Virus record (IMG/VR): IMGVR_UViG_3300006749_000138
Coordinates: 1 to 23,700 of that record
Direction: 5' to 3' (one strand)
From: a virus
DNA length: 23,700 nucleotides
Position 1 is the first letter of the stretch, and every line of letters begins with the position of its first letter. Below are positions 5,988 to 18,241 of this stretch, one piece after another. The notes under the pieces are model-generated. The model had not been told where the DNA came from. It did not search any database and saw only the letters and a program-made list of their open reading frames with translations. The position numbers and the translations under genes were made by a program.

Positions 5988-6530
5988 GTGCAAGATTTAG
6001 AGACAAAACCTACTACCCTCCTGTTCGATCTGGAAACAACACCACTCGACGCAGCTAGGACTGAAATACATTGCCTCGTCATTCTCGACTATGAGACTGG
6101 TGAGACTGAAAGATACAATGATACTGGTGCAGATCAGCCTATCCTAAGCGGTGTCAAATACCTAATGGATGCTGACACTATCATTGGACACAACATCATC
6201 GGCTTTGACATTCCGGTGCTGCAAAGATGTTACCCTTTCTTTGAACCGAGAGGAGTCATCGTAGATACATTATTATTATCAAGGCTATACCATCCTGATA
6301 TGCTTGACGTTGATCGCAAGCGTAAGGTAGAAGGTATGCCAACCAAGCTTTATGGTCGCCACTCTTTGGAGTCCTATGGCCACAGGTTGGGAGAATACAA
6401 AGGGAACTTTGGACAGACTTCCGACTGGTCACACTGGAGCAAGGAGATGGAGGACTATTGTGAACAAGATACAATCGTTACAAGAAAACTATGTCAACAT
6501 TTCCACCCTTACCTGATTGGGTCAAACTAG
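5988..6530 (+). CDS. DNA polymerase 3'-5' exonuclease domain (split gene, part 1)
   Basis: A 180-residue protein matching the N-terminal proofreading exonuclease of T7 gp5. Exo I is FDLET (Asp14/Glu16), Exo II is GHNIIGFDIPVL, and Exo III is EDYCEQDTIVT with its Asp. The segment GRHSLESYGHRLGEYKG matches T7 GSHALEAWGYRLGEMKG. It stops at TAG 6528, where T7 continues into the polymerase, and the polymerase part follows in another frame with a 40-nt overlap. It starts with GTG, supported by the ribosome-binding site at 5971. It presumably proofreads in trans as a complex with the next ORF. Alternatives are a programmed frameshift joining the two or a sequencing error. Confidence 0.93.
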   Translation: MQDLETKPTTLLFDLETTPLDAARTEIHCLVILDYETGETERYNDTGADQPILSGVKYLMDADTIIGHNIIGFDIPVLQRCYPFFEPRGVIVDTLLLSRLYHPDMLDVDRKRKVEGMPTKLYGRHSLESYGHRLGEYKGNFGQTSDWSHWSKEMEDYCEQDTIVTRKLCQHFHPYLIGSN

Positions 6531-7753
6531 AACATCAGGTCGCACACATACTACAAAAACAGGAAGAACATGGATGGTACTTTAATGAGAGCTCTGCACG
6601 GGAACTTGAGCAAACTCTCAGATCAGAACTTTCAGAAGCTACTGAAATACTACGGAGGAGACACCCTTTCGTTGCCGGAGCAGTGTTCACTCCTAAGCGA
6701 AATAACAGGACACAAGGGTACGTACAAGGATGCCCCTTCACCAAACTCAAACAACTCAACCCCACATCAAGAGATCAAATAGCATGGATACTGAAGACAC
6801 ACAGCAACTGGACACCGAACTCGTTGACAGCCTCCGGGAAGGCGGTTATAGACGAGACCGTATTAAAAGATATTGGGTCGGAGACAGCCCTGTTGTTTCT
6901 TCGATGTCTAGATATTACCAAGAAATTGGGGATGATCTCGGAAGGCGTGAACGCATGGCAAAAGCTGAGTACGACGTGTAACAGAATACACCACCACTGC
7001 TCAGTAGCCACCAGCACATTCAGATGTGCACACAGAAAACCAAACTTAGCACAAGTACCATCAGATGAAAGATTCAGACAACTATTCCAAGCCACACCTA
7101 CCTATAAGATGGTTAGTGCCGACCTTAGTGGGATTGAGCTCCGTATGCTTGCTCATTACCTTTCGAGGTACGATAATGGCCGGTATCAACGAATACTTAC
7201 TGAGGGGGATATTCACCAGACTAACGCCGAAAGGATTGGAATCACTAGACGGCAAGTTAAAACTGTTACCTATGCCTTCCTCTATGGGGCCGGCGACGCC
7301 AAGCTCGGGTATTCCTTCGATAAACAGCTCACTGAAACCGCAGCTAGACGTAAAGGGAATGAAATAAGAAAGGCGTACGTTGCAGCTATTCCCGGTTTGA
7401 AGGAGTTGCTTGATGCCACGCAGAAGTGTGCGGCCAAAGGTTTCGCAAAAGGAATTGATGGCCGTAAGATCAAGGTAGATAAGGCACACAAGTTTCTTAA
7501 CTACCTATTGCAAGGCTCAGCAGCTACAATAGCCAAAAGATGGATGGTGATTGTGAATGATTGCCTACCACATGATGCTCACCAACTATCGTTCGTCCAT
7601 GACGAGCTAAACTACGAATGTTATCCCAAAGATACTGAAGAGTTAGCCAAGTGGCTCGAAATGTCTGCTAAACTAGCAGGCGAATATTATCACCTAAGAT
7701 GCCCTATCGCAGCTGAAGCTAAGATTGGGTTTACTTGGGCAGACGTACACTAA
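6491..7753 (+). CDS. DNA polymerase, family A polymerase domain (split gene, part 2)
   Basis: A 420-residue polymerase domain of the T7 gp5 type. Motif A is SADLSGIELR (Asp211); motif B is KTVTYAFLYGAGD, with the Tyr that in T7 (Y526) allows dideoxynucleotide use; motif C is VHDE (His370, Asp371, Glu372). CAHRKPNLAQVPS matches T7 ATHAFPNLAQIPG. The start lies exactly at the exonuclease/polymerase linker: KLEHQVAHILQKQEEHGWYF aligns with T7 IEHRAAWLLAKQERNGFPF. The stretch corresponding to the T7 thioredoxin-binding insertion seems much shorter (roughly FVAGAVF to LKQL), so the processivity mechanism may differ. ATG 6491 is the only start in the overlap. Confidence 0.95.
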   Translation: MSTFPPLPDWVKLEHQVAHILQKQEEHGWYFNESSARELEQTLRSELSEATEILRRRHPFVAGAVFTPKRNNRTQGYVQGCPFTKLKQLNPTSRDQIAWILKTHSNWTPNSLTASGKAVIDETVLKDIGSETALLFLRCLDITKKLGMISEGVNAWQKLSTTCNRIHHHCSVATSTFRCAHRKPNLAQVPSDERFRQLFQATPTYKMVSADLSGIELRMLAHYLSRYDNGRYQRILTEGDIHQTNAERIGITRRQVKTVTYAFLYGAGDAKLGYSFDKQLTETAARRKGNEIRKAYVAAIPGLKELLDATQKCAAKGFAKGIDGRKIKVDKAHKFLNYLLQGSAATIAKRWMVIVNDCLPHDAHQLSFVHDELNYECYPKDTEELAKWLEMSAKLAGEYYHLRCPIAAEAKIGFTWADVH

Positions 7754-13529: not shown

Positions 13530-13595
13530 ATGGCTTACGGTCCAAAAAAGAAAACAAAAAAAGTAAAGAAACCTAAAAAAGGAATGAAATACTAA
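13530..13595 (+). CDS. Microprotein 1, 21 aa polylysine peptide
   Basis: Very short ORF, MAYGPKKKTKKVKKPKKGMKY in substance: about half its residues are Lys and none is acidic. A strong ribosome-binding site (13521-13527) and a TAATG junction with the next ORF argue that it is translated. It may bind nucleic acid or neutralise charge, but this is composition-based inference only. No family recognised. Confidence 0.55.
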   Translation: MAYGPKKKTKKVKKPKKGMKY

Positions 13596-13783
13596 TGCCG
13601 CATACTAAAAACGTTAACTCATTTGATGAGCAAAACACTCAGGATGCTGGTGGTAAGAAAGCTAAACGCAAACGCTTACCACAACCGATTAGAGGTATAG
13701 CTAACTTCTTAAATGAAGAACAAGCAGCAACTCAAGAAAACTTTGAGAAGCTTCGTAAACTTAAAAAGAAACCTAGATACTAA
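13595..13783 (+). CDS. Microprotein 2, 62 aa, FDEQ-type
   Basis: 62 residues with NSFDEQNTQDAGGKKAKRKR near the N-terminus and a basic C-terminus (FEKLRKLKKKPRY). The FDEQ-x-T-x-x-A-x-GK pattern recurs in microprotein 10 of the same cassette, including the identical 12-base stretch TTTGATGAGCAA, so the two look paralogous. Start and stop both sit in TAATG junctions. No known function. Confidence 0.65.
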   Translation: MPHTKNVNSFDEQNTQDAGGKKAKRKRLPQPIRGIANFLNEEQAATQENFEKLRKLKKKPRY

Positions 13784-13959
13784 TGGCTGATTATAAACAG
13801 TTAACTATCGACGACGAGTTCAAAAGGCTTAAAAAAATTAAAGATGAGGGCCGTCGTTATTCACCCAATGAGGTTGATACAAGGGGAGGATCTCCCGGTC
13901 AAATCTTCAAAAGGGTTGAGAACTTTAAAAAGAAAAACAACAACTCAGTAAACGCATGA
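13783..13959 (+). CDS. Microprotein 3, 58 aa basic
   Basis: Unrecognised 58-residue basic protein (ADYKQLTIDDEFKRLKKIKDEGRRY..., ending KKKNNNSVNA) with a Gly/Ser turn in the middle. It starts in a TAATG and ends in an ATGA shared with hli1. It is too short for domain assignment. Confidence 0.6.
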   Translation: MADYKQLTIDDEFKRLKKIKDEGRRYSPNEVDTRGGSPGQIFKRVENFKKKNNNSVNA

Positions 13960-14087
13960 CACACAACCACAACGGCCAGAAATGGCACCCAGCTGAAGAG
14001 CTGAACGGCAGACTAGCCATGCTAGGATTCGTAATTGCTGTTGGTACTTACATCACAACTGGACAAATTATCCCCGGAATATTATAA
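13956..14087 (+). CDS. hli: High-light-inducible protein 1 (Hlip), 43 aa
   Basis: Single-helix chlorophyll-binding protein of the CAB/ELIP/Hlip family; in cyanobacteria these bind chlorophyll and carotenoid at photosystem II and protect it under light stress. The signature AEELNGRLAMLGF, continued by VIAVGTYITTGQIIPGI, carries the Glu and Asn/Arg pigment and ion-pair residues in one membrane helix. The short N-terminus (MTHNHNGQKWHP) is typical of phage forms. Translation is coupled upstream (ATGA) and downstream (TAATG) to a second hli. Together with psbA downstream, it supports photosynthesis during infection. Confidence 0.92.
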   Translation: MTHNHNGQKWHPAEELNGRLAMLGFVIAVGTYITTGQIIPGIL

Positions 14088-14194
14088 TGACACCCGAAGC
14101 AGAAAGATTTAATGGCTGGGCAGCGATGCTTGGTTTTATAGCAGCAGTTGGAGCATACGCAACAACAGGACAAATCATACCCGGTATTTTCTAG
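14087..14194 (+). CDS. hli: High-light-inducible protein 2 (Hlip-like), 35 aa, altered motif
   Basis: A second, even shorter Hlip-like protein directly behind the first. AERFNGWAAMLGF aligns with the AEELNGRLAMLGF of hli1, and the C-terminal halves (AVGAYATTGQIIPGIF versus AVGTYITTGQIIPGIL) are nearly the same, so it looks like a tandem duplicate. The Arg of the conserved E-x-x-N-G-R motif is Trp here, which should remove the Glu-Arg ion pair used in helix pairing. It starts at TAATG and ends in TAGTG. Confidence 0.82.
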   Translation: MTPEAERFNGWAAMLGFIAAVGAYATTGQIIPGIF

Positions 14195-14346
14195 TGCCAA
14201 AAGGAGCCGGCAAAAAATACTCTGGCAAACAAATGAAGATTGCTAGAGTCGCACCACCACGTGACAAGATCACAGGAGCAGATTTTAAAGGACTAAAAAA
14301 TGGCAAGAAAAAGAAAGGGAGTAAGCCTGTCTCTCGGAAGAGGTGA
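14194..14346 (+). CDS. Microprotein, 50 aa basic, GTG start
   Basis: Lys/Arg-rich 50-residue ORF (PKGAGKKYSGKQMKIARVAPP..., ending KPVSRKR) starting with GTG on the stop of hli2 (TAGTG). The last 47 nt overlap the next ORF in a different frame. It is collinear with its neighbours and not recognised. Confidence 0.5.
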   Translation: MPKGAGKKYSGKQMKIARVAPPRDKITGADFKGLKNGKKKKGSKPVSRKR

Positions 14347-14551
14347 GAAAAGTCGCAAAGGCGGACTAACAGCTAAAGGTAGAGCCAAGTACAATCGTGC
14401 CACTGGCTCTAAACTCAAAGCTCCACAGCCCGGAGGAGGGGCTAGAAAGAGGTCATTCTGTGCCCGTATGGGTGGCATGAAAGGCCCAATGAAAAAACCA
14501 AACGGCAAGCCTACAAGAAAGGCTCTTGCTTTACGTAGATGGAAATGCTAA
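14300..14551 (+). CDS. Conserved small basic marine-phage protein, 83 aa
   Basis: 83 residues. The core RKGGLTAKGRAKYNRATGSK and the following LKAPQPGGGARKRSFCARMGGMKGP and RKALALRRWKC resemble, from memory, a small-protein family common in marine phages, often encoded near virion genes; I cannot name the family securely. The Cys in SFCARM and the C-terminal Trp-Lys-Cys recur in that family. Its start lies 47 nt inside the preceding ORF rather than at its stop. Function unknown; the basic, Gly-rich composition suggests nucleic-acid contact. Confidence 0.75.
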   Translation: MARKRKGVSLSLGRGEKSRKGGLTAKGRAKYNRATGSKLKAPQPGGGARKRSFCARMGGMKGPMKKPNGKPTRKALALRRWKC

Positions 14552-14721
14552 TGGCTAAGAAAAAAAAGATTAACAAACCTGTCAAAGACTTAAAAGATTT
14601 TGATGATCCTAATTCTCAGATCAACAAGAACAATTATAAGTTAGATCAGATAGGTAAAAAGAAAAGAAACAAATATGTAATGAACCATGATTTCTTTAGC
14701 GATAACGGCAACGTAGTATAA
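14551..14721 (+). CDS. Microprotein, 56 aa basic
   Basis: 56 residues, Lys-rich N-terminus (MAKKKKINKPVKDLKDFDD) and a more mixed C-terminus (YVMNHDFFSDNGNVV). ATG 14551 is on the previous stop (TAATG) and is preferred to an in-frame ATG four codons upstream. Unrecognised. Confidence 0.6.
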   Translation: MAKKKKINKPVKDLKDFDDPNSQINKNNYKLDQIGKKKRNKYVMNHDFFSDNGNVV

Positions 14722-14915
14722 TGGCTATTATTTTTGGTATTGATGGTTCCAAGCAGAACCGCAAGGGATCTAAGATTGCTATGGATCTTACACCTAGAAA
14801 CGAAAAGAATCTAAACAAAAGAATAAAAATGGATCCTTTCACAGGTGGCGATGAACTTGATAAAATAATCAAAGAGCAACGCAAACGTAAAAAAAACATG
14901 AAAGGTAAATCGTGA
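14721..14915 (+). CDS. Microprotein, 64 aa basic
   Basis: 64 residues beginning MAIIFGIDGSKQNRKGSK, then alternating charged residues, with a C-terminal helix (DELDKIIKEQRKRKKNMKGKS). It starts in a TAATG and ends in a TGATG junction. Unrecognised. Confidence 0.6.
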   Translation: MAIIFGIDGSKQNRKGSKIAMDLTPRNEKNLNKRIKMDPFTGGDELDKIIKEQRKRKKNMKGKS

Positions 14916-15085
14916 TGCGAAAAACAAAAAAGATACGACCCTTTGATGAGCAAGATACAAAACTTGCTAGGGGTAAAACTGTTAAACAACAAGCTAAGAC
15001 CGATGTACTTAACATGGTCAAGACACTAACTAAGCAAAATAAACATGTTGAAGCCCAAGCTCTATTCAAAGAGTCATTCAAATAA
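14915..15085 (+). CDS. Microprotein, 56 aa, FDEQ-type paralogue
   Basis: 56 residues. IRPFDEQDTKLARGKTVKQQ aligns with NSFDEQNTQDAGGKKAKRKR of the 13595-13783 protein, pointing to duplication within the cassette followed by divergence. The C-terminal part forms a probable helix (VLNMVKTLTKQNKHVEAQALFKES). It is joined to neighbours by TGATG and TAATG. Function unknown. Confidence 0.62.
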   Translation: MRKTKKIRPFDEQDTKLARGKTVKQQAKTDVLNMVKTLTKQNKHVEAQALFKESFK

Positions 15086-15147
15086 TGCACAAGAAAACTA
15101 AAAAAAAGGGCGGCAAGAAATGTGGCTGCCCACACGGAGGTAAGTAA
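15085..15147 (+). CDS. Microprotein, 20 aa Lys/Gly/Cys peptide
   Basis: 20 codons: a Lys-rich start (HKKTKKKGGKK) then CGCPHGGK. The Cys-x-Cys-x-x-His is suggestive of metal binding but too short to claim. It is flanked by TAATG junctions on both sides, which is the main reason to accept it. Confidence 0.45.
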   Translation: MHKKTKKKGGKKCGCPHGGK

Positions 15148-15311
15148 TGGGTAAGTTATGTCCTCGCGGTAAGGCAGCAGCCAAACGCAAATTCAAAGTA
15201 TACCCCTCTGCATACGCTAACGCTTACGGTGTTAAGGTATGTAAAGGACAAGTTAAAGCCGGTGGCAAAAAGAAAGCTGCACCCGGATATTCACGTAAGA
15301 AAAGAAGGTAA
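15147..15311 (+). CDS. Conserved small basic marine-phage protein, 54 aa
   Basis: 54 residues with KLCPRGKAAAKRKFKVYPSAYANAYGVKVCKG, a motif that I remember from many aquatic phages and some large viruses (a DUF5872-like pattern; the name should be checked). The two Cys, in LCP and VCKG, are conserved there. The C-terminus is a basic tail (SRKKRR). It starts and ends in TAATG junctions. Function unknown. Confidence 0.72.
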   Translation: MGKLCPRGKAAAKRKFKVYPSAYANAYGVKVCKGQVKAGGKKKAAPGYSRKKRR

Positions 15312-15460
15312 TGGCATTAACTAAACGCCAACAAGATACTCTTAAAAAACATTCCAAACATCACTCTGCCAAGCATATGGCTATGATGCGTAAGGATATG
15401 AGAGCAGGCATGAGCTTTTCAGCAGCACACAAAAAAGCACAAAAGGCAGTAGGCAAATGA
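15311..15460 (+). CDS. Conserved small helical His/Lys-rich protein, 49 aa
   Basis: 49 residues: [48 protein letters not shown] recall similar LTKRQ...LKKHSKHHT...HM..M proteins in marine phages, of unknown function. It is helical, cationic and rich in His and Met. It starts in a TAATG and ends in an ATGA shared with the next ORF. Confidence 0.7.
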   Translation: MALTKRQQDTLKKHSKHHSAKHMAMMRKDMRAGMSFSAAHKKAQKAVGK

Positions 15461-15708
15461 GTTTAAGACGATGGTTTAAAGAAGAATGGGTAGACACCAA
15501 GACCGGCAAGCCTTGTGGCCGCCAAAAAGGGGAGAAACGCAAAGGCTATCCAGCTTGCCGTCCGTCGAAACGCGTTTCTTCCAAGACTCCTAAGACTACT
15601 GGTGAGATGTCAAAAGGCGAAAAGGCCAAGTTTAACAGATCAAAGACCAGTAGCCGTAGGATCAACTACAATCACAAACGACGAAATAAATTAAAAATTA
15701 GAAAATGA
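15457..15708 (+). CDS. Conserved small basic protein, 83 aa, upstream of psbA
   Basis: 83 residues. The N-terminal [20 protein letters not shown] followed by [11 protein letters not shown] is a motif I remember from marine phage and large-virus small proteins (W-V-D-x-K-T-G-K-P-C-G-R, then Y-P-x-C-R-P). The remainder is Lys/Arg/Ser-rich. Its stop overlaps the psbA ATG (ATGA 15705-15708), so psbA translation depends on this ORF. Function unknown; a nucleic-acid or metal role is possible from the two Cys. Confidence 0.75.
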
Positions 15709-16745
15709 TTACAGCTCAAACACAAACTCTAACTAGACAAGAAAACAACTGGCAAAGGTTCTGTGAGTGGGTCACATCTACCGACAACCGCCTCTATGTG
15801 GGGTGGTTCGGTACATTAATGATACCCGCACTCTTAACAGCAGCAACATGTTTTATCGTAGCATTTATCGCTGCACCTCCCGTCGACATTGACGGCATAC
15901 GTGAGCCAGTTGCAGGCTCTTTGCTATTTGGTAATAATATAATCTCAGGAGCAGTAGTACCTAGCTCTAATGCTATAGGTCTACACTTCTATCCTATATG
16001 GGAAGCAGGCACATTAGACGAGTGGCTATACAATGGTGGCCCTTATCAGCTTGTTGTCTTCCATTTCCTCATTGGTATCTCAGCATACATGGGTCGCCAG
16101 TGGGAACTCAGTTACAGATTAGGCATGCGTCCTTGGATTGCAGTAGCTTACTCTGCACCTGTATCAGCAGCGTTCGCTGTATTCCTTGTGTACCCGTTCG
16201 GTCAAGGGAGTTTCAGTGATGGTATGCCTCTTGGTATTAGTGGTACTTTCAATTTTATGTTCGTATTCCAAGCAGAGCACAATATACTTATGCACCCTTT
16301 CCATATGGTCGGTGTTGCTGGGGTATTCGGTGCAGCTCTTTTCTCTGCTATGCATGGAAGTCTCGTTACTAGCTCTCTCGTTCGCGAGACAACTGAACTC
16401 GAGTCTCAGAACTATGGGTACAAGTTCGGTCAGGATGGTGAAACCTATAATATTGTCGCTGCTCATGGCTATTTCGGCAGACTGATTTTCCAGTATGCGT
16501 CATTCAATAACAGCCGTGCTCTTCATTTCTTCCTTGCTGTCTTCCCTGTTGTTGCTATATGGATCACCTCAATGGGTATATCAACAATGGCCTTTAACTT
16601 AAACGGTTTCAACTTTAACCAGTCAATCGTTGATGCTAACGGCAAAGTTATACCTACATGGGCTGACATAGTAAACAGACAGAACCTTGGTATGGAAGTA
16701 ATGCACGAAAGAAACGCACATAATTTCCCTCTAGACTTAGCATAA
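15705..16745 (+). CDS. psbA: Photosystem II D1 protein
   Basis: D1 reaction-centre protein, 346 aa (numbering here is D1 standard +2). Redox and metal residues are present: Tyr163 (YZ), Asp172, Glu191, His192 and His200, the Ser of YASFNNS at the QB site, and the C-terminal Mn ligands in [15 protein letters not shown]. Gln132 corresponds to the Gln/Glu130 switch that separates D1 forms. The protein stops exactly at the mature C-terminal Ala344, so the usual ~16-residue extension removed by CtpA is missing. Replaces rapidly turned-over host D1 in the thylakoid so that photosynthesis continues during infection. Fairly divergent from host copies (e.g. [26 protein letters not shown]). Translation is coupled to the upstream ORF. 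Confidence 0.98.
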
Positions 16746-16750
16746 GTCCA

Positions 16751-16812
16751 CGTCCGTTCATCCTTCGGGACGCATGAGATCTGACCATGGAACGGGGGTC
16801 AGGTACTGAGGT
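16751..16812 (+). promoter_or_regulatory. Glutamine-riboswitch-like pseudoknot ('Downstream-peptide' RNA motif)
   Basis: Non-coding leader between psbA and a 33-codon ORF. Stem 1: CCGTTC (16754-16759) pairs with GAACGG (16790-16795). Inside it is a TTCG-capped hairpin (TCC 16761-16763 with GGA 16768-16770). A second 8-bp stem, ATCTGACC (16779-16786) with GGTCAGGT (16797-16804), encloses the 3' strand of stem 1, giving an H-type pseudoknot. The CGTTCATCC...GGGACG...GGAACG order and the short peptide gene downstream match what I know of the Downstream-peptide/glnA class that binds L-glutamine in cyanobacteria and cyanophages. The ribosome-binding GAGG follows at 16808. Not checked with a covariance model. 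Confidence 0.75.
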
Positions 16813-16817
16813 AACTT

Positions 16818-16919
16818 ATGTCTCAAGTAGAACTACAAGCTCGAATCAAAGAGCAAAGAGATCATGCTAGAGCTATGAAACTTAAGTATCGTGGCATCGC
16901 ATACACACCCAACAGGTAA
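16818..16919 (+). CDS. Riboswitch-linked downstream peptide, 33 aa (DUF4278-like end)
   Basis: 33 codons with a GAGG ribosome-binding site 6 nt before the ATG. The C-terminal half MKLKYRGIAYTPN resembles the DUF4278-type 'YRG-x-x-Y' motif common in short cyanobacterial and cyanophage proteins and typical of peptides behind the Downstream-peptide RNA motif. The N-terminal half is a charged helix (VELQARIKEQRDHARA). Its synthesis is presumably controlled by the leader, in response to glutamine as the nitrogen signal. The stop codon TAA lies inside the 5' strand of a tRNA-like stem. The molecular role is not known. Confidence 0.7.
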   Translation: MSQVELQARIKEQRDHARAMKLKYRGIAYTPNR

Positions 16920-16955
16920 GTGGCACACTGGGAGGTTCGAGTCCTCCCTTACCTA
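16914..16955 (+). other. tRNA-like minihelix (acceptor stem plus T-arm)
   Basis: AGGTAAG (16914-16920) is exactly complementary to CTTACCT (16948-16954). The second strand directly abuts a perfect 5-bp T-stem GGAGG/CCTCC with canonical 7-base T-loop TTCGAGT (16936-16942). This is the 7+5 bp geometry of a tRNA top half, with an A at the discriminator position (16955) but no encoded CCA. Only 10 nt (16921-16930) stand where D- and anticodon arms would be. It could be a decayed tRNA or a deliberate RNase P-type processing signal; it is not a complete tRNA. Confidence 0.6.
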
Positions 16956-16957
16956 TT

Positions 16958-17013
16958 GGCTTTTGCCCTCTACGGAGGATACCTTAAGCCGTCATGACGG
17001 TGGGATAGACCAC
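16958..17013 (+). other. Run of RNA hairpins upstream of the capsid gene
   Basis: Three possible hairpins in succession: GGC-TTTT-GCC (16958-16967); CCTC (16967-16970) with GAGG (16975-16978) closed by the very stable TACG (UNCG) tetraloop, which competes with the first; and the 12-base perfect palindrome CCGTCATGACGG (16989-17000). GTGG (17000-17003) can also pair with CCAC (17010-17013). No T-run follows, so this is not an obvious terminator. It is likely structured 5' leader RNA of the capsid message or part of the riboswitch/minihelix unit. Confidence 0.45.
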
Positions 17014-17071: not shown

Positions 17072-18241
17072 ATGGGACAACAAAATTCAACTCTGACTAC
17101 AGGTATTACCAATCTGGGTCAGGCTAATGGTAGTGGTGATAAGAGAGCCCTTTACCTTAAATTGTTTTCCGGAGAAATGTTCAAAGGCTTCCAAAGGAAC
17201 ACGATAGCTCGTGACCTTGTGATGAGAAGAACACTTCAAAACGGAAAATCTCTTCAGTTCATCTACACTGGACGCACAAAAGCCGAGTATCATACACCCG
17301 GAAACAGCATCCTAGGTAACTCAGACTCTGCACCACCAGTAGCAGAAAAAACAATAACTGTTGATGATTTATTAATCAGTTCAGCTTTTGTTTATGAGCT
17401 AGATGAAACACTCTCACACTATGATTTGAGAGGTGAGATCTCTAGAAAGATTGGATACGCTCTTGCAGAGCAGTATGACAGAAAGATCTTCAGAGCTATC
17501 ACAAAAGCTGCACGTACAGCACACCCTATCACAAAGTCTAACTTTGTAGAGCCCGGTGGAACACAGCTACGTGTAGGTACAAACGCACAGGCTTCTGACG
17601 CCTACAACTCTGGTTTCTTAATCAACGCCTTCTACGACGCTGCTGCGATCCTAGACGAGAAGGGCGTGTCTGGTGAGGGTAGAGTAGCTGTTCTTAACCC
17701 AAGACAGTACTACGCACTTATACAGAACGTAGAAACTAACGGACTAATCAACCGTAACGAAAGAGGAGACGCATTACAGTCTGGTAACGGCATCATTGAG
17801 ATCGCTGGTATCCAGATCTTCAAGTCAATGAACATCCCATTCTTCGGTAAGTTCGGTACAAAGCTCGGCGGTTCTGCATCTGCTACAGATCCCGGAACAG
17901 CTGCACCACTTAACAATGGTGACTTCGTAGGCGAAACAATGGCTGACGAAAGAGCTGGTACATCTGCAACTAAGACTGTTAACACATATGGTAACAGCGA
18001 TAACTTCAATAACAGCTGTGGCTTAATCTTCCAGAAAGAAGCTGCTGCATGTGTTGAAGCAATCGGCCCACAAGTTCAGACAACATCTGGAGACATCTCA
18101 GTGGTATACCAAGGAGACGTTATCTTAGGTCGTCTAGCTATGGGTGCAGACTCACTCAACCCAGCAAGTGCTGTTGAGTTGATTGCCGGTAAAGCAGTTT
18201 CTGCTGCATCTGGTTCTGCAAACACAACTACTTTCGAGTAA
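17072..18241 (+). CDS. Major capsid protein (gp10-like)
   Basis: 389 aa HK97-fold capsid protein. The N-terminal GSGDKRALYLKLFSGEMFKGFQR parallels T7 AAGDKLALFLKVFGGEVLTAFAR. QFIYTGRTKAEYHTPG, the ITVDDLLISSAFVYELDETLSHYD segment and the C-terminal part (VYQGDVILGRLAMGADSLNPASAVEL) also match the family. It is slightly longer than T7 gp10A (345 aa), with Gly/Thr-rich insertions around residues 265-310. No C-terminal frameshift extension like T7 gp10B is possible, since a terminator follows within 16 nt. It is preceded by structured RNA rather than a clear ribosome-binding site. Confidence 0.96.
   Translation: MGQQNSTLTTGITNLGQANGSGDKRALYLKLFSGEMFKGFQRNTIARDLVMRRTLQNGKSLQFIYTGRTKAEYHTPGNSILGNSDSAPPVAEKTITVDDLLISSAFVYELDETLSHYDLRGEISRKIGYALAEQYDRKIFRAITKAARTAHPITKSNFVEPGGTQLRVGTNAQASDAYNSGFLINAFYDAAAILDEKGVSGEGRVAVLNPRQYYALIQNVETNGLINRNERGDALQSGNGIIEIAGIQIFKSMNIPFFGKFGTKLGGSASATDPGTAAPLNNGDFVGETMADERAGTSATKTVNTYGNSDNFNNSCGLIFQKEAAACVEAIGPQVQTTSGDISVVYQGDVILGRLAMGADSLNPASAVELIAGKAVSAASGSANTTTFE

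Follow-up and report, generated by a model that had tools for sequence, protein, structure and literature searches.

A conserved leader RNA and exchangeable tRNA-like signals at the capsid gene suggest that ocean cyanophages borrow host tRNA-trimming enzymes for their coat-protein message

Structures resembling parts of tRNAs mark processing sites in several known transcripts. The mascRNA and menRNA (MALAT1 tRNA-like, RF01684) are released by RNase P and RNase Z, while in mitochondria and plastids intergenic tRNAs set the ends of mRNAs (tRNA punctuation). Among phages, M3 RNA of phi80 and C4 RNA of P1 and P7 are tRNA-like substrates of host RNase P. The cut made by RNase Z follows the discriminator base; that of RNase P falls at the 5' edge of the acceptor. 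The locus described here shares with mascRNA and menRNA a tRNA-like acceptor and T-arm within a longer transcript. With PhotoRC-II and the other cyanophage motifs (Weinberg 2010, PMC2864571) it shares the presence of structured cis RNAs in a cyanophage; no motif at the capsid gene is described in that work, and the word "capsid" is absent from its main text. With Glutamine-II (Downstream-peptide RNA, RF01704), an ON switch that is probably translational (PMC6698751), it shares the aptamer, the spacing to a short ORF, the cyanobacterial or cyanophage setting, and a YRG motif of the DUF4278 type.

The window (the whole stretch of DNA analysed, 23.7 kb of a virus record) comes from a T7-like marine cyanophage, and among its genes are psbA and those for a Gp10A-like major capsid protein and a T7-type RNA polymerase. 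The isolates nearest to it by the block between psbA and the capsid gene include P-SSP7, P-SSP2, and S-TIP37, which share the order psbA - short ORF - capsid. Elsewhere in the window, the DNA polymerase is split into two overlapping ORFs (5988-7753; exonuclease of 180 aa, polymerase of 420 aa), and small Lys/Arg-rich ORFs form a run from the scaffold protein to psbA (13595-15708), including a DUF5872 match and PHROG families of unknown function. An earlier note on this DNA had proposed that a glutamine-riboswitch-like pseudoknot, a short peptide, a tRNA-like minihelix, and a UNCG hairpin form a single unit ending at 17013. All four elements are real, and the boundary is correct to within one base (Table 1).

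Table 1. Features of the window at and around the capsid leader
Feature	Position	Strand	Evidence
psbA (photosystem II D1), gene 5' of the block	15705..16745	+	Photo_RC 291.5 bits
Glutamine-II riboswitch aptamer (RF01704)	16752..16804	+	cmscan 50.4 bits, gathering 33, E=1e-9
GAGG, likely ribosome binding site of the peptide, 3 nt past the aptamer	16808..16811	+	read from sequence
33-aa peptide with DUF4278 motif (LKYRGIAYTP)	ATG 16818 to TAA 16919	+	Pfam PF14105
tRNA-like minihelix	16914..16955	+	7+5 bp, T-loop TTCGAGT
Minihelix acceptor	16914-16920/16948-16954	+	AGGTAAG/CTTACCT, 7/7 paired
Minihelix T-stem GGAGG/CCTCC	16931-16935/16943-16947	+	sequence pairing
Minihelix T-loop TTCGAGT	16936-16942	+	
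Discriminator-like A of the minihelix, then TTGGC	16955	+	
Predicted processing junction between N and UU, RNase Z-type position	16955..16956	+	constant helix-N-UU spacing, three unrelated module types
Capsid leader RNA, 59 nt, four helices	16956..17014	+	covariation; model R1 78.6 bits here
Leader P1	16958-16965/16983-16990	+	
Leader P2, UACG loop (CCTC-TACG-GAGG, 16967-16978)	16967-16970/16975-16978	+	
Leader AUAC bulge	16979-16982	+	
Leader P3 palindrome	16989-17000	+	
Leader P4, GAUAGA loop	17000-17003/17010-17013	+	
Major capsid protein gene, 57 nt past the leader	17072..18241	+	Gp10A-like 245 bits

The riboswitch belongs to Glutamine-II by Rfam membership, which lends support to the proposed glutamine sensing; matches above gathering occur in relatives also. 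The short peptide likewise appears to be riboswitch-controlled, as had been suggested: its ORF (MSQVELQARIKEQRDHARAMKLKYRGIAYTPNR) starts 14 nt past the aptamer, and its C-terminus matches DUF4278 (30 bits, cutoff 25.3). This pair of riboswitch and peptide is already known, and the novelty lies downstream of the riboswitch. In one relative (L021:833-940), the riboswitch is joined straight to the second half of the leader, the module and the 5' strand of P1 being gone, apparently by natural deletion.

The minihelix is the only T-arm with a fully paired acceptor partner on either strand of the whole window. Its acceptor has 7 bp and its T-stem, closed by the T-loop, 5 bp, forming a 12-bp stack with one base past the acceptor. 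As the earlier note had proposed, it is tRNA-like and lies where processing would part the psbA/peptide mRNA from the capsid mRNA. Neither ARAGORN nor Rfam returned a full cloverleaf tRNA (RF00005) in the window, and a tmRNA was rejected, as both programs gave no match there. A permissive Rfam scan of the block yielded sub-threshold matches only; the best tRNA-like one was to RF01684, at 16.1 bits against a gathering threshold of 42.5.

Folding energies of single sequences fail to separate the elements from chance (z-scores of +0.92, -1.84, and -0.83), and the analysis of the leader therefore relied on relatives. Loci were gathered via the capsid protein and via a 19-base pattern; 100 distinct leader copies were extracted, 58 of which were aligned (A1). 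RNAalifold independently returned from A1 the fold P1-P4 that had been drawn by eye. P1 has 8-9 bp; P2, of 3-4 bp, is capped by UACG, UAAG, CAAG, or CACG; next comes an AYAC bulge; P3 is a palindrome (CCGUCUAGACGG or CCGUCAUGACGG); and P4 reads GUGG-GANAGA-CCAC. In A1, 92.2% of the cells are paired and 10 of the 19 pairs undergo two-sided change, with 151 two-sided cells as against 54.6 +/- 6.7 after shuffling and no more than 32 with the strands slid, although kinship among the sequences inflates such counts. The third P1 pair is seen as C-G, A-U, U-G, and U-A without mismatch. Divergent leaders, found by searching with the core of another module (the third, described below) and without using leader sequence, retain the GANAGA loop while P4 becomes GUAGG/CCUAC, GUGUG/CACAC, GUCUG/CAGAC, or GUCG/CGAC; their P3 consists of other palindromes. 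In a model-based alignment (A2, 89 matches), fitted to the model and hence biased towards it, two-sided change extends to 14 of the 19 pairs. Given the many pair types and the slid-strand controls, the leader is very likely a genuine fold. Covariation and an Infernal match, whose joint absence had been set beforehand as grounds for giving up the finding, were both looked for, and the finding stood. The predicted UNCG hairpin exists but is P2 of the four-helix leader, not a separate element.

Searches of Rfam 15 found no family above gathering for the leader, either in the window or in 20 relatives; under permissive settings the leader reached 13.6-16.9 bits at most. A local GGC-GCC hairpin was rejected as part of the leader fold: its third base pairs with a distant strand (C-G, A-U, U-A, U-G), while the local GCC stays fixed. 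P1 and P3 have the CC at 16989-16990 in common and may compete for it. P3 is mostly a perfect palindrome, loop included (CUAG, CAUG, AUAU; others in divergent phages), a hint of RNA dimers or of a function at the DNA level. Two relatives (L164, L186) carry a longer hairpin that extends P2, with P1, P3, and P4 unchanged, and in distant phages (L232, L253, L296, L301) the palindrome and P1/P2 with an ACAC bulge are reordered after the third module.

The capsid gene lies directly 3' of the leader in all 157 copies with more than 200 nt of downstream sequence, at a distance of 46-90 nt (median 60). The link is not circular, because part of the set came from the pattern alone. Of 10 complete phages searched with the covariance model, 9 yield a single match and S-B28 an extra one of 12 bits; 8 additional records yield one apiece, which is weak for S-TIP28 and SS120-1. 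In these last two (L215 and L312), highly diverged leaders lie 5' of the capsid gene, with E about 0.02-0.06 per genome. The leader is present in 18/18 cyanophage records or contigs searched whole and in more than 100 ocean viral contigs. An attP/integration role or a host origin was rejected: occurrences of the 19-base pattern in cellular genomes sit in contigs of phage architecture or are chance matches (Komagataeibacter, Xylophilus) that lack the element. Five contigs from bacterial MAGs bear the cyanophage block (L218, L222, L224, L226, L227), probably through binning contamination. The block is not a fixed unit. The riboswitch and psbA are common 5' of the leader yet often missing near it, as judged by pattern and tblastn searches, and in many phages a full tRNA-Gly or another hairpin takes the place of the minihelix. 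The notion of a single unit is thus only partly right, since riboswitch and leader also exist separately.

One of three modules adjoins the leader on its 5' side: the minihelix, a tRNA-Gly that is whole or nearly so, or a hairpin built on a 15-nt core. S-TIP37 has the minihelix, and 9515-10a and S-RIP2 have the third of these modules. All three have a common geometry, in which the end of a helix is followed by one base, UU, and then P1. Minihelix T-loops conform to T[TG]C[AG]ANN, changes in the T-stem are compensatory, and acceptor-strand pairing over 50 relatives is 4.96, as against 4.20 +/- 0.11 (maximum 4.63) in 500 permutations. As single sequences, minihelix modules are unusually stable (mean z -2.3), and some have weak acceptor stems of 4-5 bp. 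The T-stem is separated from UUGG by 8 nt in 42 and by 9 nt in 15 of 57 copies. A complete tRNA-Gly(UCC) occupies the same place in NATL1A-7, where it is annotated so, and in L049, L052, and L055; the last three, together with L003, contain a tRNA (RF00005) with full cloverleaf and anticodon, and L068 has a tRNA-Gly form with an altered D-arm (Rfam 30 bits). The core of the third module, CACCUCA-GA-GUCGGA, is nearly invariant, sits in a covarying stem of ~10 bp, and lies 11 nt from UUGG in 94/126 copies. Reading its UCAGAGU as a T-loop was rejected, as this breaks down for UCAGUGU variants.

The modules have been exchanged repeatedly. A FastTree phylogeny of 218 capsid proteins implies 36 module changes, at least 31 of which are forced by well-supported branches. 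Recombination between capsid and leader could explain part of them; against this counts the pair P-SSP2/L299, in which both flanks are homologous and align, the module alone differs, and the break falls exactly between N and UU. The right-hand junction is the same in L102/L306. A second copy of the third module is found 5' of another gene, whose product has 164-228 aa and unknown function, in four contigs (L110:373-520, L172, L187:121-250, L283). There it is followed, after one base, by an unrelated structured leader that starts with UU (UUCC(C)UUGACC...GGUCAAGG).

The reading towards which we lean is that the tRNA-like module is a tRNA-type processing signal that frees the capsid mRNA with a structured 5' end. 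That a whole tRNA, half of one, and a third helix can stand in for each other at one exact junction is most simply explained if they are processing signals, and the constancy of the capsid gene downstream argues that the device serves the capsid mRNA, not the upstream one. A late transcript would read through the upstream genes, which in this window are psbA and the peptide under glutamine control, and on into the capsid gene. The module would fold as the acceptor/T-arm half of a tRNA, and host tRNA-maturation enzymes would cut it: RNase Z behind the discriminator-like base, RNase P on the 5' side, or both. The resulting capsid mRNA would start 5'-UU, with P1-P4 immediately next. Such a structured end might resist 5'-end-dependent decay and may aid translation. 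Cyanobacteria possess both RNase P and RNase Z, and host rne is induced during P-SSP7 infection (PMC10989914), so that a structured 5' end would be useful. Since mimicry of a tRNA is not evident in the third module, a single enzyme for all three modules is a guess.

It is possible, though on balance unlikely, that P1-P4 instead controls translation of the capsid gene or its autoregulation, for instance by giving ribosomes a standby site or by binding a phage protein, and that the modules stay uncut and insulate it as strong hairpins. The strict linkage to the capsid gene would suit such a role, as would the conserved GANAGA loop of P4 and the AYAC bulge, which resemble protein sites. Insulation leaves unexplained, however, why the insulating role should fall to a tRNA, a T-arm minihelix, or a hairpin with the 15-nt core, each of them always ending one base before UU, and why the identical junction recurs 5' of an unrelated leader.

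Two further explanations are improbable. If the tRNA-like pieces were functionless, decaying phage tRNA genes beside a functional leader, complete tRNA-Gly genes at the same site and intermediates without a normal D-arm would be expected, and both are found; yet pairing in the T-stem and acceptor is maintained by compensatory change, the junction is precise, and the modules have replaced one another in both directions instead of disappearing. No more credible is a role at the 3' end of the psbA/peptide mRNA, which the module would mark or protect as a tRNA-like terminus: it does sit where upstream coding regions end, with many stop codons at or just 5' of it, but the upstream gene is variable and the downstream gene constant. 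Most improbable is that the conserved GGTGGGATAGACCACA serves mainly as a T7-type promoter 5' of the capsid gene, a reading prompted by the polymerase encoded in the window and by a GGGA..GACCACA string that we take to resemble the T7 phi10 start, and rejected because the string occurs once in the window and per complete genome instead of recurring at several starts, varies freely or is lost where pairing stays (GTCTG GAGAGA CAGAC and others), and lies downstream of P1 and P2, whose covariation implies that both are transcribed.

If the module is a processing signal, the riboswitch could have a bearing on it. The stop codon of the peptide (16917-16919) falls in the acceptor strand of the minihelix, so that ribosomes completing the peptide should open up the module. 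Where a minihelix locus encodes a peptide with the YRG motif, 33-44 nt separate the end of the stop from UUGG (34/34 cases), and the stop lies within the tRNA-like fold in 24 of the 25 minihelix loci whose acceptor can be placed; at third-module loci, many upstream stop codons are located just 5' of the hairpin instead. With an ON switch upstream, translation of the peptide and folding of the module should compete, and peptide translation and module processing would then be mutually exclusive. A doubtful extension of this idea is that glutamine decides whether the small peptide, taken as a nitrogen signal, is translated or the capsid mRNA is matured. At high glutamine, the peptide would be translated and the terminating ribosome would open the module; at low glutamine, the module would fold, and cleavage by tRNA enzymes would set free a capsid mRNA whose 5' end is structured. 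The non-tRNA module would represent a new minimal substrate (or a ribozyme) that phages freely exchange for a tRNA. The overlap may also be mere compact packing.

The leader adds a new RNA family tied to the most highly needed protein of cyanophages. Should the processing model be true, tRNA punctuation would extend to phages, and the natural swaps of real tRNA, half tRNA, and non-tRNA could show, as ready-made experiments, how little tRNA-processing enzymes require of a substrate. The model would also open a testable path by which nitrogen status could affect virion production, in infections that rank among the ocean's commonest. Searches of Rfam and of an open-access library of papers turned up no account of either the capsid leader or the module exchange.

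Set against the described systems, the locus departs from each in a different respect. Relative to Glutamine-II/Downstream-peptide RNA, a tRNA-like module and a capsid leader adjoin, and the end of the ORF overlaps the tRNA-like fold. The M3 RNA of phi80 and C4 RNA of P1 and P7 are small or antisense RNAs, whereas here the structured RNA is the leader of the capsid mRNA and the cut is proposed. The minihelix is not a member of the mascRNA/menRNA family, and its conserved partner is the leader of a downstream mRNA. Unlike organellar punctuation, the arrangement belongs to a phage, concerns one junction, and often employs half a tRNA or a non-tRNA substitute. We take the leader to constitute a new structured-RNA family in a tRNA-punctuation-like arrangement.
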